Shown: positions 5,348-59,753 of the stretch, one piece after another
Layout: each line of letters starts with the position of its first letter
How positions within the stretch are numbered: the stretch's first letter is position 1
Assembly (NCBI GenBank): GCA_030528455.1
Contig: JAUMYW010000006.1
Location: forward strand, 1 to 64,000
Length of the DNA stretch: 64,000 bases
From: Neisseria sp.
GTDB lineage: Bacteria > Pseudomonadota > Gammaproteobacteria > Burkholderiales > Neisseriaceae
Direction: 5' to 3'
The notes under the pieces: model-generated
Seen by the model: only the letters and a program-made list of their open reading frames with translations
The model's database searches: none
Told to the model about the DNA's origin: nothing
Program-made: the position numbers and the translations under genes

Positions 5348-5830
5348 TTTATCTATAATCCGCAAACCTGTTGGAAACAGCGGCAAACTTGTCGCAACGC
5401 TACCGCCGGCCGGATATAAGTATTTGAAAAGAAAATATCCGTACCACAGCCGGCATGTCGGCAGGCACGAATGTGAACCCGCTATTCTATCTTAAAAAAA
5501 ACGCACTCTACAAAGCATTTCCTTTCTACGGCAAAAGCCTGCCGGAGAAAGAACGTAATTAAGTTTGACTTGATTTGACCGCAACCGCCTTGTCGGTAAG
5601 ACGCTTCGGCGCACGGGGCGGTTGTCCGCGCCAACGCGGTACGGGAAGATGTGGCTCTTGTTTAAGTCTGGCAGTGTTTTTCTGAAAATCACAACACGCA
5701 GACGGCGCAGACAGACTGATTCTGCGCAATTTGTTCTTTAATTCCTTCTTGTTTCCGAAAAAGCCTGCACAGAGCCGTCTGCAGACGGCCTGCAACATTG
5801 CAGGGGAAAAGTTCAAATACTGATTACCTG
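5348..5830 (+). other. rluC-rne intergenic region, probable long rne leader
   Basis: About 500 bases separate rluC from rne. It contains a GC-rich stretch with possible stems near 5580-5650. A self-overlapping DUS palindrome, GCCGTCTGCAGACGGC, lies at 5774-5789. Long 5' leaders with regulatory hairpins are known for rne of E. coli, where RNase E controls its own mRNA. Whether this leader does the same is inference. I see no gene in it. Confidence 0.45.
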
Positions 5831-51208: not shown

Positions 51209-51774
51209 GGTTTGCCTCTCGCTGTTCGGGGAATATTCAGTGCGTCCCAGCCGTCTTTTCCCATCTTTTCCAATAATGCGATGTTGCGGCCGAAAATGAC
51301 CGCTGCGTCGGGGAATGCGGCAGCGGCGCGTGTGATGCTGTCTTCGCGGATCAGATGCAGTGTGGGATAGGGCGAACGGTTGGTGTAATTGGAAATGTCG
51401 TCGGGACCGGTACCTTCAAACCGGAAATCGGGGTGGAAGGAAGCGATTTGGACAGAGCCTTCCAGGCCGTTGTCGATAACGGCTCGGTCGGCGAAGTCGA
51501 GCATGTCGTTGAATTCGAGAAAGTCGGCAAATAGGGTCGGATGGACGAGCAGAGTGGTTTCCAATTCTTCGGCGGGTGTGTTTGAGAGGAGTTGCAGTTC
51601 GCGGTCGAGGTCTTCGAGAAAACCGTCCGAATGTCTGGCGGTGCTGACGGTGATTCTGACCTGTTTTTTAACATAGGGTGCTTTGGCAAACGGACATAAA
51701 TTCAGCCCGATAACGGCCTTTTCCAGCCATTGTCGGGTGTGTTCGCCTACGGTTTGCGTATCGGGTGCCGTCAT
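51205..51774 (-). CDS. DUF1415-family protein
   Basis: A 189-residue soluble protein. The family segment TRQWLEKAVIGLNLCPFAKAPYVKKQVRI is near the N-terminus, then TLLVHPTLFADFLEFNDML, SFHPDFRFEGTGPDDISNYTNRSPYPTLHLIRE and DAAVIFGRNIALLEKMG. DUF1415 has no established function. ATG 51774 is chosen because the 43 preceding in-frame codons translate DUS-containing spacer. Confidence 0.87.
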   Translation of the reverse strand: MTAPDTQTVGEHTRQWLEKAVIGLNLCPFAKAPYVKKQVRITVSTARHSDGFLEDLDRELQLLSNTPAEELETTLLVHPTLFADFLEFNDMLDFADRAVIDNGLEGSVQIASFHPDFRFEGTGPDDISNYTNRSPYPTLHLIREDSITRAAAAFPDAAVIFGRNIALLEKMGKDGWDALNIPRTARGKP

Positions 51775-51863
51775 GATTGGGATTGTTTCGCATCGGGTAG
51801 TGAGCCTGCAATCATAAAACTTTTTGCGGTGATTGGAAACAGTGTGTGGGATTTGCGGAAGGG

Positions 51864-51894
51864 GAACAGCCGCTGCCGTCTGCAGCGGCTGTTC
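51864..51894. terminator. Hairpin with a DUS across its loop, downstream of the Lrp gene
   Basis: GAACAGCCGCTG (51864-51875) and CAGCGGCTGTTC (51883-51894) form a 12-bp perfect stem. The loop and its edges form GCCGTCTGCA, a DUS. No T-run follows on the minus strand. Confidence 0.55.
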
Positions 51895-51907
51895 GGACGG
51901 CATGAGG

Positions 51908-52390
51908 TTATAACGTCTGCAGATGATTGAGCGGCAGGGCTGTGGTGTTTTTGATTTCTTTTAGTACAAAGCTGGATTTGGCATCCTGTACGCCCGGATG
52001 CGAGAGTAGGGTGTCGAGTACGAAATGCGAAAAGGCGTTCATGTCGGGAAAGAATGTGTGCAGCAGATAGTCGGTTTCGCCGGTCAGGGCAAAGCAGCTC
52101 AATACTTCCGGCCAGCTTTGTACGGCCTGGCCGAACTGGTCGCGTGCTTCGCTGGCTTTGTCGATGGATACGCGGATAAAGGCTTGCAGGCCGAGTCGGA
52201 TGGCAACAGGAGACAGCAGGGCGGCATACTGGCGGATAATGCCTGCATCTTCCAACTGTTTCAGGCGGCGCAGACAGGGCGAGGGCGACAGGGCGACGCG
52301 TTCGGACAGCTCGACATTGGTCAGACGGCCGTTGTTTTGCAGGACTTGCAAAATTTTCAAATCGGTTTTGTCTAATGTGATTTGTGTCAT
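51908..52390 (-). CDS. Lrp/AsnC-family transcriptional regulator
   Basis: A 160-residue regulator. The N-terminal helix-turn-helix LDKTDLKILQVLQNNGRLTNVELSERVALSPSPCLRRLKQLEDAGII is followed by the RAM effector domain, with GLQAFIRVSIDK, VLSCFALTGETDYLLHTFFPD and a C-terminal SFVLKEIKNTTALPL. This type binds amino acids such as leucine or methionine. It diverges from the glycine cleavage genes, which in other bacteria are often Lrp-controlled, so regulation of gcv is plausible but not shown. Confidence 0.92.
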   Translation of the reverse strand: MTQITLDKTDLKILQVLQNNGRLTNVELSERVALSPSPCLRRLKQLEDAGIIRQYAALLSPVAIRLGLQAFIRVSIDKASEARDQFGQAVQSWPEVLSCFALTGETDYLLHTFFPDMNAFSHFVLDTLLSHPGVQDAKSSFVLKEIKNTTALPLNHLQTL

Positions 52391-52631
52391 AAACAGTTTC
52401 CTTTTTTCTTCTAGTAGATTAACGGCGAAAAAGCCGTCCGGTCGAATATAAAGTAAATCGGTTTAACATACAATACGCCAAAAAAAGAAAATCTTTAAAA
52501 TAAAATGATGCAAAAACGCCTGATTTTGGAATACGGATACCGGTTTGGCAGACAGGCTGTCTGCAAGCGGCGAACTTGTAAAGAAAAGCTTGCAGTAATG
52601 CGCCTTTGAAGCCATAATCAGCGCGGTTTCA

Positions 52632-52861
52632 GGAGAGTGCTGCGGCAGATTTTTGCAATGTGCCGCCGCCGCCGAAGGCGCAGACCACCCTTAAATCGCT
52701 CAGGCAAAAGGACTGAAACCGTAATCGTCATCTGGAGAGCGGCGCGGCTGCGCCCACCGAAGGGGAAAAGGCGAGTCAGGGCATACGTCCGGACGCAAGC
52801 CTGCCGTCTGCAGACGGCAGGTCTGCCGAAAATCTCAGGTTCAAGGACAGATAGGGTCGCG
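52632..52861 (+). ncRNA. Tandem glycine riboswitch upstream of gcvT
   Basis: Two aptamers in a row. The first starts GGAGAG at 52632 and ends with CTCAGGCAAAAGGACTG near 52715. The second starts GGAGAG at 52734, has CACCGAAGGGGAAAAGG, and ends with TCTCAGGTTCAAGGACAGA near 52851. These are the conserved core elements of gcvT-type glycine riboswitches. The gcvT ATG follows about 45 bases later, so glycine should switch gcv expression on. The second aptamer carries an extra stem made of a self-overlapping DUS palindrome (52800-52821). Confidence 0.93.
52800..52821. repeat. 22-bp perfect palindrome made of two overlapping DUS, inside the riboswitch
   Basis: The centre is GCCGTCTGCAGACGGC (52803-52818), extended by CCT on the left and AGG on the right, so it is fully self-complementary. 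In RNA it would make a 9-bp stem with a TGCA loop within the variable arm of aptamer 2. Confidence 0.8.
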
Positions 52862-52898
52862 TGAAAAGCAACGCCGCCCCTATTCTATGGAGAATAAA

Positions 52899-53999
52899 AT
52901 GACCTTGAAAACCACCCCTTTTCATCAAGCCCATCAAGAAGCCAACGGCAAACTGATCGATTTCGCCGGTTGGGAACTGCCTATTCATTACGGTTCGCAA
53001 ATCACCGAGCACGAAGCAGTGCGTACCGATGCCGGTATGTTCGACGTTTCGCATATGCTGGTTACCGACGTAACCGGCGATAATGCCAAAGCATTTTTCC
53101 GCAAACTGATTGCCAATGATGTCGCCAAATTAAGCTTTGTCGGCAAAGCTCTGTATTCTGCGCTACTGAACGACAACGGCGGCGTGATTGACGATTTGAT
53201 CGTTTACCGCACAAACGAAGCCGAAACCACCTACCGCATCGTATCCAACGGCGCGACCCGCGAAAAAGATTTGGCGCAATTTGCCAAGGTCGGTGCGGAG
53301 TTCGGCGTAACATTAACGCCGCGTTACGATTTGGCGATGATTGCCGTGCAAGGTCCGAAAGCCGCTGAAAAACTCTTGAGCATCAAAATGGATTGGGCGG
53401 ATAAAGTCAATGCGTTAAAACCGTTTGTCGGTACGGATTTGGGTGATGATTGGTTTGTCGCCCGCACCGGCTACACGGGCGAAGACGGCGTGGAAGTGAT
53501 TTTGCCTGCAACGCAAGCCAATGATTTCTTTAAAGCTTTGGCAGATGCCGGTGTTCAGCCTTGCGGCTTGGGCGCGCGCGACACTCTGCGTATGGAAGCG
53601 GGTATGAACTTGTACGGCAACGATATGGACGATAATACCAGTCCGCTGGAAGCCGGTATGGCGTGGACGGTTGATTTGAAAGACGAAAACCGCGACTTTG
53701 TCGGCAAAACAGCGTTGCTTGCGCTCAAAGAAAAAGGTGTGGCGGTGAAGCAGGTCGGCTTGTTACAAACGGGCAAAGGCGGCGTTTTGCGCGCGGGCAT
53801 GGAAGTCGTTACCGAAGCGGGCGGCGGCATCACGACAAGCGGCGTATTCAGTCCGAGCCTGCAACAGTCCATCGCCATCGCGCGCGTGCCTGCGGGTTTT
53901 GACGGCGACAGTGCCAAAGTGATTATGCGCGGCAAGGAAGTAGACGTGCGCGTATTGAAACTGCCGTTTGTTCGCAACGGCAAAAAGCAGTTCGACTAA
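52899..53999 (+). CDS. gcvT: Glycine cleavage system T protein (aminomethyltransferase)
   Basis: A 366-residue enzyme transferring the methylene group from aminomethyl-lipoyl GcvH to tetrahydrofolate, releasing ammonia. N-terminus [30 protein letters not shown], then [35 protein letters not shown] and [25 protein letters not shown], the folate and active-site segments. GGAG lies 6 bases before ATG 52899, so I prefer it to ATG 52887. A tandem glycine riboswitch controls it. Confidence 0.96.
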
Positions 54000-54013
54000 A
54001 TCCGCTGCAAAAG

Positions 54014-54046
54014 TTGCAGACGGCTTGGGTCTGATGCCGTCTGCAA
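54014..54046. terminator. Inverted DUS pair between gcvT and aldA
   Basis: TTGCAGACGGC and GCCGTCTGCAA flank an 11-base loop. No T-run. It may reduce read-through from gcvT into aldA. Confidence 0.45.
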
Positions 54047-54089
54047 CGGTCGGCGATCTTAAAAACCAACAAGTCCGAAGGAGTGAACG

Positions 54090-55526
54090 ATGAAAACATT
54101 ATCAATGTACATCAACGGCAAATTCGACGATGCCGCCCAAGGCTGGGTGGAAGTGTTGAACCCTGCCACAGAAGACGTGATTGCCAAAGAGCCGCAGGCG
54201 GGCGAAGCGGAAGTGAGCCGTGCGGTTGAAGCGGCGTATGCGGCGCAGCCGGCGTGGGAGCGTCTGCCTGCGGTGGAACGCGGTGCATATTTGAAAAAAA
54301 TCGCCGCCGGCATCCGCGAGCGTGCCGACGAGCTGACCGACACCATCGTTGCCGAAGGCGGCAAAACCAAGGATTTGGCGCGTATCGAAGTGCTGTTCAC
54401 TGCCGATTATCTGGACTATCAGGCCGAATGGGCGCGCCGTTACGAAGGCGAAATCATTCAAAGCGACCGTCCGCGCGAAAATATTTTCCTGTTCAAACGT
54501 CCCTTGGGCGTGATTGCCGGCATTCTGCCGTGGAATTTCCCGTTTTTCCTGATTGCCCGCAAAATGGGTCCGGCTTTGGTAACAGGCAACACCATCGTTA
54601 TCAAACCAAGTTCGGTTACGCCGATTAACTGTCAGATTTTCGCCGAAATCGTCGACAGCGTTGGTCTGCCTGCCGGCGTGTTCAACGTGGTGAACGGCGG
54701 TAAAGAAACCGGTACTTTCCTGGCAGGTCATCCGAAAGTGGCGATGGTCAGCCTGACCGGTTCGGTACGCGCAGGTGCCGAAGTGATGGCGACCGCCGCG
54801 CCGAACATCACCAAAGTATCGCTGGAACTGGGCGGCAAAGCCCCTGCCATCGTACTCAAAGATGCCGATTTGGATTTGGCGGTGAAATCGATTCTGGCTT
54901 CGCGCGTGGGCAACACCGGCCAAATCTGCAACTGCGCCGAGCGCGTGTACGTACATTCGAGCATCAAAGACGCGTTTGCCGAAAAAATGGTTGCCGCAAT
55001 GAAAGGCGTACGCTACGGCAATCCTGCCGAAGCAGCCGAAGGCGCGTTGGAAATGGGGCCACTGATTGAAGAGCGCGCCGCCAAAGCGGTTGAAGCCAAA
55101 GTCGCCCGCGCAGTCGAACAAGGCGCGACCTTGGTCTTGGGCGGCAAACGTGCAGACGGCAAAGGCTTCTTCTTCGAGCCGACCGTGCTGACCGACGTGC
55201 ATAACGGCATGGACATTATGAAAGAAGAAACCTTTGGCCCTGTGCTGCCGATTGCCACTTTTGAAACGCTGGACGAAGCGGTTGCTCTGGCCAACGACTG
55301 CGAATACGGTCTGACCAGCTCTGTGTACACCAACAATCTGAACGAAGCGTTTTACGTTACCCGCCGTCTGCAATTCGGCGAAACCTATGTAAACCGCGAA
55401 AACTTTGAAGCCATGCAGGGCTTCCATGCCGGCTGGAAAAAATCCGGCATCGGCGGCGCGGACGGCAAACACGGCTTGGAAGAATATCTGCAAACGCAGA
55501 TGGTTTATTTGGAAACCAATATTTAA
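54090..55526 (+). CDS. aldA: AldA-type aldehyde dehydrogenase (lactaldehyde/glycolaldehyde)
   Basis: A 478-residue NAD-dependent dehydrogenase. The N-terminus MYINGKFDDAAQGWVEVLNPATEDVIA, VIAGILPWNFPFFLIARKMGPALVTGN, KVSLELGGKAPAIVL and the catalytic NTGQICNCAERVYV with the active cysteine closely follow E. coli AldA, which oxidises L-lactaldehyde to lactate and glycolaldehyde to glycolate. Length is as in AldA. A good AAGGAG precedes the ATG. It is inserted between gcvT and gcvH on the same strand, flanked by DUS hairpins on both sides. Its exact substrate here is not proven. Confidence 0.9.
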   Translation: MKTLSMYINGKFDDAAQGWVEVLNPATEDVIAKEPQAGEAEVSRAVEAAYAAQPAWERLPAVERGAYLKKIAAGIRERADELTDTIVAEGGKTKDLARIEVLFTADYLDYQAEWARRYEGEIIQSDRPRENIFLFKRPLGVIAGILPWNFPFFLIARKMGPALVTGNTIVIKPSSVTPINCQIFAEIVDSVGLPAGVFNVVNGGKETGTFLAGHPKVAMVSLTGSVRAGAEVMATAAPNITKVSLELGGKAPAIVLKDADLDLAVKSILASRVGNTGQICNCAERVYVHSSIKDAFAEKMVAAMKGVRYGNPAEAAEGALEMGPLIEERAAKAVEAKVARAVEQGATLVLGGKRADGKGFFFEPTVLTDVHNGMDIMKEETFGPVLPIATFETLDEAVALANDCEYGLTSSVYTNNLNEAFYVTRRLQFGETYVNRENFEAMQGFHAGWKKSGIGGADGKHGLEEYLQTQMVYLETNI

Positions 55527-55534
55527 ACGGGCGT

Positions 55535-55567
55535 ATGCCGTCTGCAAAACCTTCGTGCAGACGGCAT
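55535..55567. terminator. Inverted DUS pair after aldA
   Basis: ATGCCGTCTGCA (55535-55546) and TGCAGACGGCAT (55556-55567) around a 9-base loop, no long T-run. Confidence 0.55.
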
Positions 55568-55641
55568 TGCTGCCGATTGAACATTTCCGGCAGGTTATTT
55601 TTACCGGCCTTTTCTTTACCAGTTAAAACGGAGAACAAACC

Positions 55642-56025
55642 ATGAGCAATATCCCAGCAGAATTGAAATACGTTGCCAGCCACGAATGGCTGCGTCTGGA
55701 AGCGGACGGCACGATTACTGTCGGCATCACCGAACACGCGCAGGAATTGTTGGGCGACATCGTTTATGTCGAGCTGCCCGAAGTCGGGGCGAGTCTGGCT
55801 GCCGAAGAGCAGGCCGGCGTAGTGGAATCGGTAAAAGCCGCTTCCGACGTGTACGCGCCGATTGCCGGCGAAATCGTGGAAATCAACGAAGAGCTGGTTG
55901 CCGCACCGGAAACCGCCAACAGCGATCCTTACGGCGCGGGCTGGTTCTTCAAAATCAAGCCTGAAAACGCTGCCGATTACGACGGCCTGCTGAGCGCGGA
56001 AGACTACGCGAAAGAAGTCGGCTAA
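55642..56025 (+). CDS. gcvH: Glycine cleavage system H protein
   Basis: A 127-residue lipoyl carrier that shuttles the aminomethyl group between GcvP and GcvT. The lipoyl lysine lies in [18 protein letters not shown]; the N-terminus [41 protein letters not shown] is typical. GGAG precedes the ATG by 9 bases. Confidence 0.96.
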
Positions 56026-56031
56026 AACCGT

Positions 56032-56068
56032 ATGCCGTCTGCAGGTTTGCAAGACTTGCAGACGGCAT
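56032..56068. terminator. Inverted DUS pair after gcvH
   Basis: ATGCCGTCTGCA (56032-56043) and TGCAGACGGCAT (56057-56068) with a 13-base loop. Confidence 0.55.
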
Positions 56069-56151
56069 ATCTGCCTGAACGGGCGGTTTTGCCGAAACAC
56101 TGCTCCGGCGGTTTTTCGGCAAAATTTTCCGAATAACGTGCGGGAGGCCGT

Positions 56152-56844
56152 ATGAAAACCTTGGGCATTATCGGCGGTATGAGTGCGGAAAGCACTGTGC
56201 CTTATTACCAAATCATCAACCGTCGGGTGAATGAGCGTTTGGGCGGTAACCACAGCGCGGAAATCCTGCTGCACAGCGTCAATTTCGAGCGCATCGTCCG
56301 ATTGCAGCGTGCGGGGGACTGGAAACGGGCGGGGCGTGTGCTGGCAGAAACGGCCGCCGGTTTGGAACGTGCGGGCGCACAGGGTCTGCTGTTGGCCACC
56401 AATACTATGCACAGGGTGGCGGACGACATCGAGCAGGCTGTCGGCATACCGTTTCTGCATATCATCGATATTGCCGCCGAAGCTTTGAAAAAACAGGGCA
56501 TACACCGTGCAGCACTGTTCGGAACGCGTTTTACCATGAGCGACGGTTTCTACCGGCAGCGCATGGAGGCGCATCGGATTGAAGTCATCACACCTTCGGA
56601 ACAGCGGCAGGCAGAAATCCACCGCATTATTTTTGAAGAACTGTGCCGCAACAAATTAACCGCCGAAGCCCGGCAGTATTATCTCGACAGCATTGAGGAA
56701 CTGGCGGCGGAAGGTGCGGAAGGCGTGATTTTCGGCTGTACCGAAATCGGTTTGCTGTTGCAGGAAAGTGCCTGTCCGATACCCGCTTTCGATACGGCGG
56801 TTCTGCATGCGCAGGCAGCAGCCGAATGGATTTTGTCCGAATAA
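56152..56844 (+). CDS. Aspartate/glutamate racemase family protein (YgeA-like)
   Basis: A 230-residue cofactor-independent racemase fold: MKTLGIIGGMSAESTVPYYQIINRRV. The first catalytic position holds threonine (T83 in LLATNTMHRVAD) and the second cysteine (C196 in GVIFGCTEIGLLL). The Thr/Cys pair is that of E. coli YgeA (Thr83/Cys197), an L-amino-acid-specific aspartate/glutamate racemase, rather than the Cys/Cys pair of MurI. It lies between gcvH and gcvP, a place where it is not normally expected, with a DUS palindrome behind it. Its link to glycine metabolism is unknown. Confidence 0.88.
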   Translation: MKTLGIIGGMSAESTVPYYQIINRRVNERLGGNHSAEILLHSVNFERIVRLQRAGDWKRAGRVLAETAAGLERAGAQGLLLATNTMHRVADDIEQAVGIPFLHIIDIAAEALKKQGIHRAALFGTRFTMSDGFYRQRMEAHRIEVITPSEQRQAEIHRIIFEELCRNKLTAEARQYYLDSIEELAAEGAEGVIFGCTEIGLLLQESACPIPAFDTAVLHAQAAAEWILSE

Positions 56845-56855
56845 ATCAAGGACAG

Positions 56856-56871
56856 GCCGTCTGCAGACGGC
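56856..56871. repeat. 16-bp self-overlapping DUS palindrome
   Basis: GCCGTCTGCAGACGGC lies between the racemase gene and gcvP. Two DUS copies share their TGCA ends. No T-run, so it is more likely an uptake site or weak hairpin than a terminator. Confidence 0.7.
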
Positions 56872-56909
56872 ATCAAGCAGAAAAGTGATTTAGCCAAAGA
56901 GGAAATACC

Positions 56910-59753
<2,844 letters not shown>

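Follow-up and report, generated by a model that had tools for sequence, protein, structure and literature searches.

The window examined here is a stretch of 64,000 nucleotides from Neisseria sp. (GCA_030528455.1, contig JAUMYW010000006.1), and its source is a 1.22-Mb assembly that is 69% complete. Upstream of gcvT, it holds a predicted tandem glycine riboswitch whose second aptamer carries, at the tip of one stem, a perfect palindrome built from two overlapping repeats resembling the DNA uptake signals (DUS) of the Neisseriaceae. The parts of the locus, in window positions, are as follows.

52620..52725, + strand: glycine riboswitch aptamer 1 (RF00504, 60.8 bits, full model 1-94)
52722..52860, + strand: glycine riboswitch aptamer 2, with its P3b arm enlarged (RF00504, 43.9 bits, full model 1-94, long insertion at the P3 tip)
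52765..52832, + strand: P3 segment of aptamer 2 as scored (68 nt, from CACCGAAGGG to TCTCAGG), containing the variable P3b
52800..52821, no strand: perfect 22-bp palindrome, hairpin tip of P3b (sequence, inverted repeat, RNA fold)
52803..52812, + strand: own-dialect DUS-like core GCCGTCTGCA (1410 copies in the assembly)
52809..52818, - strand: second, overlapping own-dialect DUS-like core GCCGTCTGCA (1410 assembly copies; dyad 25 times in the assembly)
52861..52898, + strand: stretch between aptamer 2 and gcvT, without a terminator-like site
52899..53999, + strand: gcvT, aminomethyltransferase of the glycine cleavage system (ORF; 84-85% identity to three Neisseria loci found)

An earlier note, made from the letters of this DNA alone, had claimed a riboswitch core here and a palindrome within it, and on both points, it was right. 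Covariance-model search finds both aptamers above the RF00504 gathering score of 32, and the alignment puts the palindrome (its letters, CCTGCCGTCTGCAGACGGCAGG, are exactly 52800-52821) in the insertion at the P3 tip of aptamer 2, inside the aptamer and at the tip of its variable stem, rather than outside. The inverted repeat extends imperfectly to 52795-52826. Folded as RNA, the palindrome is predicted to form a 10-bp hairpin with a UGCA loop; the same minimum-energy folds miss the surrounding aptamer architecture, and their stability is unremarkable (z -1.0 and -1.4). From the model scores and its position as the leader of a glycine-cleavage gene, the feature is assigned as a putative tandem gcvT-type glycine riboswitch (RF00504). 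The gcvT start, which was picked by likeness to relatives (an in-frame ATG at 52887 is also in the list of open reading frames), lies 39 nt past the final base of aptamer 2. A gcvT tree places the gene with its counterparts in G024, G050 (Neisseria weixii), and G051 (support 91).

What, then, are the two repeats? The earlier note called them two overlapping DUS, and overlapping repeats of the uptake type they are; they are not the canonical signal. Each unit is GCCGTCTGCA, which matches GCCGTCTGAA at 9 of 10 positions and ends in CA, and the canonical reading is rejected on that ending. Within 51501-57500, GCCGTCTGAA is absent, and the window as a whole has 21 copies of it and 83 of GCCGTCTGCA. 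Counted de novo, GCCGTCTGCA is the top 10-mer of 144 kb of the window genome, with 179 copies, and across the assembly, it averages one per 0.86 kb. It is thus the genome's dominant repeat, and the palindrome units are perfect copies of its core. Whole-assembly counts are 1410 in the window genome (G000), 2302 in G009, and 1960 in G040, with at most 103 copies in each of the other 80 of 83 family genomes; these three genomes, the CTGCA group, are scattered on the gcvT tree rather than forming one group. Density in this dialect group is 3.73/kb in intergenic DNA and 1.14/kb overall. The bases preceding the 179 copies are most often AT (68) or AA (47), with CT, as at the palindrome, in 11, and GCCGTCTG followed by AA occurs 41 times in the 144 kb. 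The control string AAGTCTGCCGGA, which is AGGCCGTCTGAA read backwards, occurs 404 times in G060 and 546 times in G062 (genus g8), and given this abundance may belong to an unrelated abundant repeat.

Of the 179 copies, 52 stand in inverted pairs within 40 nt, and such pairs lie just past open reading frames at 54015/54036 (after gcvT), 55537/55556, and 56034/56057. The tighter arrangement, a 16-bp dyad of two overlapping units (GCCGTCTGCAGACGGC), is found 25 times in the window assembly and 107 times in G040; G009 has a single copy, and the other 80 genomes have none. Simple arithmetic (1410 copies, six further specified bases) puts the chance expectation for the window assembly well below one. 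Two more such dyads occur in the window, at 5774-5789 and at 56856-56871, the latter about 12 bases past an open reading frame ending at 56844 and ahead of another at 56910 that is gcvP by sequence.

The palindrome cores match none of eight published DUS dialects exactly, in a comparison for which we assumed the core letters of the muc, wad, and eik dialects. The repeat has CTG at +6 to +8, C at +9, and A at +10. According to the text of Frye et al. 2013 (PMC3630211), the Neisseriaceae dialects share the CTG core at +6 to +8 and the final A at +10, king3DUS has C at +9, and GCCGTCTGCA is not among the forms given there, the figure alignment aside. Because the repeat is dominant here and reaches comparable numbers in no more than 2 of the 82 relatives, we take it as a probable DUS dialect, as yet unnamed, that dominates three genomes of the genus. 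Perhaps it is among the seven frequent 12-mers that have been taken to hint at new dialects, the letters of which are not given in the passage concerned (PMC11316581). A search of the open-licence literature for the letters GCCGTCTGCA returned, among the matches listed, none on DUS by title. The text of Frye et al. 2013 (PMC3630211) also describes in Simonsiella muelleri two DUS, of the simDUS and kingDUS forms, overlapping in dyad symmetry as they do here; the dialect here differs, and one of the dyads sits within a riboswitch arm.

Is this arrangement a peculiarity of one genome? It is not. In a sample of 83 Neisseriaceae genomes, the riboswitch was present in 52, and in 47 of these, the dominant repeat is of the DUS type. 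By dialect, the 52 comprise 24 AG, 6 AT, 4 muc, 5 wad, 3 CTGCA, and 5 sim/king genomes (the label "sim" covers simDUS and kingDUS cores) and 5 without a DUS-like 10-mer, the labels having been assigned by eye from the commonest 10-mers in, mostly, one 20-kb piece per genome (8 to 144 kb). For the last five (G002, G005-G008), "no DUS" means that none of the five commonest 10-mers in 12-20 kb is DUS-like. A core of the genome's own dialect lies in aptamer-2 P3b in 29 of the 47 DUS-using genomes: 17 of 24 AG, all 6 AT (scored by the shared 10-mer core, their riboswitch 12-mer being the AG form in 6 of 6), 1 of 4 muc, 2 of 3 CTGCA, 3 of 5 sim/king, and 0 of 5 wad. The other three mucDUS genomes have an AG-type core in place of their own; none of the cores tested is in the P3b arms of the five wadDUS genomes; and P3b is without an own core in 7 of 24 AG-DUS genomes, 2 of 5 sim/king genomes, and 1 of 3 CTGCA genomes. 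Elsewhere in the same leader, own-dialect cores are scarce (aptamer 1, 1 of 47, a dyad in G001; aptamer-2 P2, 0 of 47; downstream leader, 2 of 47), and the six cores tested in the five no-DUS genomes are all absent. Four dialect types thus occur in this arm, each in matching genomes—GCCGTCTGAA in AG and AT genomes, GTCGTCTGAA in G032, GCCGTCTGCA in G000 and G040, and sim/king cores in G054, G066, and G081—and the differing cores occupy differing positions of P3b in separate lineages. A DUS of the species' own dialect in the same stem is thus borne out for 29 of 47 genomes and four dialect types; the wadDUS genomes (0 of 5), the three of four mucDUS genomes with the AG core, and the genomes of other dialects without an own core speak against so simple a picture. 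The earlier interpretation is partly supported, and the finding is real and wider than it had stated.

Two loci deserve a separate word. Downstream of the riboswitch of G016 (L035/L269), no gcvT was found in the available stretch, and an inverted DUS pair and a 140-codon open reading frame follow instead. On a metagenome-assembled contig labelled Moraxella (L054), a similar tandem glycine riboswitch accompanies a GcvT 85% identical to that of the window, and eight DUS cores were all absent from 7 kb there; this is either a gene transfer or a mislabelled bin.

The recurrence exceeds what intergenic DNA of the same genomes would give. Own-DUS density is 12.4/kb in P3b, 5.63/kb in intergenic DNA (a background that is a rough mask based on open reading frames, in pieces of about 1 Mb in all), and 1.26/kb overall, with aptamer 1 at 0.4/kb and the leader at 0.5/kb. 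At intergenic density, 12.9 genomes with a P3b DUS are expected, and 29 of 47 are observed, a figure that overstates independence, since the genomes share ancestry: a single cluster takes in 21 inserts, and a gcvT tree, taken without a shuffle control (and without G016, whose available stretch has no gcvT after the riboswitch), needs 13 changes between presence and absence among DUS users. When the inserts are grouped at 65% identity, an arbitrary threshold that merges some unlike ones, 8 of 13 clusters have an own DUS in half or more of their members, where intergenic density would predict 2.7 (crude P 0.0009). Relatedness, cluster threshold, and intergenic mask all limit these enrichment figures.

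Nor do structured RNAs take up DUS as a rule: own-dialect DUS occur in 2 of 42 RNase P RNAs (30 + 12 loci, the wadDUS label of G039 having been assigned unchecked) and in 0 of 29 TPP aptamers (30 loci among the matches listed, less the incomplete L249), and a general uptake of DUS by structured RNAs is unsupported. In G012, G021, and, for TPP, G018, the AG label was taken from core counts. The two RNase P RNAs with an own-dialect core inside are L223 (G052) and L263 (G030). Six others (L254-L259, from G009, G051, G024, G019, G037, and G016, respectively) are about 40 to 105 nt above the usual 360, and own-dialect DUS are absent from all six.

The pairing of the arm is largely kept. Closing pairs 2 and 3 of P3b are standard in 97% of 40 distinct inserts, counted without G002, which has no P3b, and in at most 88% in shuffles (500 each); these pairs covary, with changes on both sides, among the types G-C, A-T, and T-A. 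Within the 21-member insert cluster, the stem GTCTGAA/TTCAGAC is common to 15; G024 differs in the loop only, G026 is shortened, G032 (Neisseria sicca C2010005502) differs outside the stem and has its own muc core, and in G050 and G051, a wobble preserves the pairing. In G009, a genome of the CTGCA dialect, the stem reads GTTTGAA/TTCAAAT: both arms have changed, the CTG core is lost, and the pairing remains. Four wadDUS genomes (G014, G034, G048, and G037), whose gcvT is nested among those of AG-DUS genomes, have arms without the AG core that form another short hairpin (G034 and G037 were folded). From these two cases, the pairing of the arm, as read from its letters, seems to outlast its DUS. 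Inverted pairs speak against this. DUS on both strands of P3b occur in 10 of 29 genomes, which is not commoner than among DUS in general, where 605 of 1143 copies are paired within 90 nt, and hence filtering for hairpins is not visible in pair frequency.

The length of the arm points both ways. The P3 segment has a median of 84 in genomes with an own DUS (n=29) and 36 in DUS users without one (n=18), and it measures 23-31 in five betaproteobacterial outgroup loci. In the five no-DUS genomes, the arms are 7-45 nt (median 45), not shorter than the DUS-free arms of DUS users, and arm length is therefore not simply driven by DUS. A search at the level of the order matched 139 of 250 genomes; the arm lengths from it are weak and were not relied on, 21 of 29 new loci having been caught by motif with both aptamers mixed. 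What may set this arm apart is where it lies. The letters CCC in aptamer-1 P3b and GGG after aptamer 2 are present in 52 of 52 leaders, and the main text of PMC13104608 proposes that these C and G tracts pair as the P5 pseudoknot, which would leave only the P3b of aptamer 2 free.

We therefore propose, with a probability of about 0.6, that aptamer-2 P3b is the permissive arm of the riboswitch, in which DUS accumulate and are filtered by RNA pairing. P3b would be the one peripheral arm clear of the glycine pocket, of the dimer contacts, and of the P5 pseudoknot and, being clear of them, could grow and change. Transformation biased by uptake would seed and fix DUS wherever the DNA tolerates them, and in P3b, the survivors would be those sequences that still close a hairpin, a single stretch then serving as DUS in the DNA and as a neutral or stabilizing hairpin in the RNA. 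Glycine binding would, as reported for the gonococcal homologue in the text of PMC13104608, free the ribosome-binding site of gcvT. Arm length in DUS-free genomes, which gives no clean separation, weakens the proposal somewhat.

Might the arm instead be under positive selection, kept as a local tag for uptake and repair of the conserved gcv region and updated after each switch of dialect? We regard this as unlikely, if a serious contender. From the core at 51875 to the one at 54015, a distance of about 2.1 kb, the two in the palindrome are the sole own-dialect cores, as a local tag might be; gaps of about 2 kb are, however, not rare at one repeat per 0.86 kb on average. In G032, one base differs from the AG form of close relatives and makes the core that of mucDUS, the genome's own dialect, and in six genomes of other dialects (G000, G040, G032, G054, G066, and G081), the own core is present and the others tested are absent, which looks like updating; three of the four mucDUS genomes nevertheless have the AG core, and in the four wadDUS genomes nested by gcvT among AG-DUS relatives, the AG core and the own core are both missing. 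A stronger and compound claim is that, across the family, P3b has been repeatedly rebuilt as a DUS in the species' own dialect, with DNA uptake and RNA pairing selected together, that the arm is a record of dialect change, and that the window genome has a ninth dialect, ATGCCGTCTGCA/AAGCCGTCTGCA; taken whole, it is tentative, and we would sooner doubt it than assert it.

Another reading is plain descent with chance: a DUS would have arisen on one or a few occasions in a stretch resembling intergenic DNA and been inherited, the riboswitch being incidental. One cluster of 21 inserts does have its stem by descent, and DUS are frequent in intergenic DNA (5.63/kb), but the rest of the same leader is nearly free of DUS, different cores stand at different points of P3b in separate lineages, and clusters with an own DUS exceed the intergenic expectation, all of which makes this improbable. 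Far more improbable still is that the palindrome is an intrinsic terminator or attenuator built from a DUS pair. Ambur et al. (2007) reportedly described inverted DUS pairs as transcription terminators, and the inverted pairs after several open reading frames here (54015/54036, 55537/55556, and 56034/56057) might suggest the same use. No T run follows the palindrome, however, and the stretch 52400-52950 has no terminator-like site (a GC-rich hairpin with a T run), on which ground the intrinsic terminator is rejected. With no such site, control of gcvT is probably translational. The gonococcal homologue, in the text of PMC13104608, is a translational switch with no terminator predicted. The DUS-pair terminators discussed in the text of PMC3630211 resemble this case in that DUS become a hairpin in the transcript; the hairpin here differs in belonging to a ligand-binding RNA and in having no U-tract.

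The arm has a close counterpart in the gonococcal riboswitch, which as described in the text of PMC13104608 also has two aptamers ahead of the gcvT operon, with aptamer 2 the less conserved and no terminator, and shows glycine-responsive control as a translational ON-switch. There, Bauer et al. report a P3 loop of aptamer 2 that is 73 nt long, variable, and possibly Y-shaped; we infer from its length and shape that it belongs to our 21-member insert cluster. The main text of that study (2026) has no occurrence of DUS or uptake sequence, whereas here, the loop holds own-dialect DUS in many genomes of the family. We found no earlier description of a DUS within an aptamer in the open-licence literature, supplements aside, and the passages retrieved from PMC7237195, PMC4176332, and PMC2267715 hold nothing on DUS inside an aptamer.

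For the family, these results suggest that a folded RNA that binds a ligand can admit uptake tags at one specific arm, and we propose pairing as the filter that decides which of them survive there. They offer an explanation for the long, variable aptamer-2 P3 loop of the gonococcal riboswitch, and they point to a probable unnamed dialect in three genomes. One homologous site in dozens of species is, in addition, a possible record of how DUS dialects have changed.
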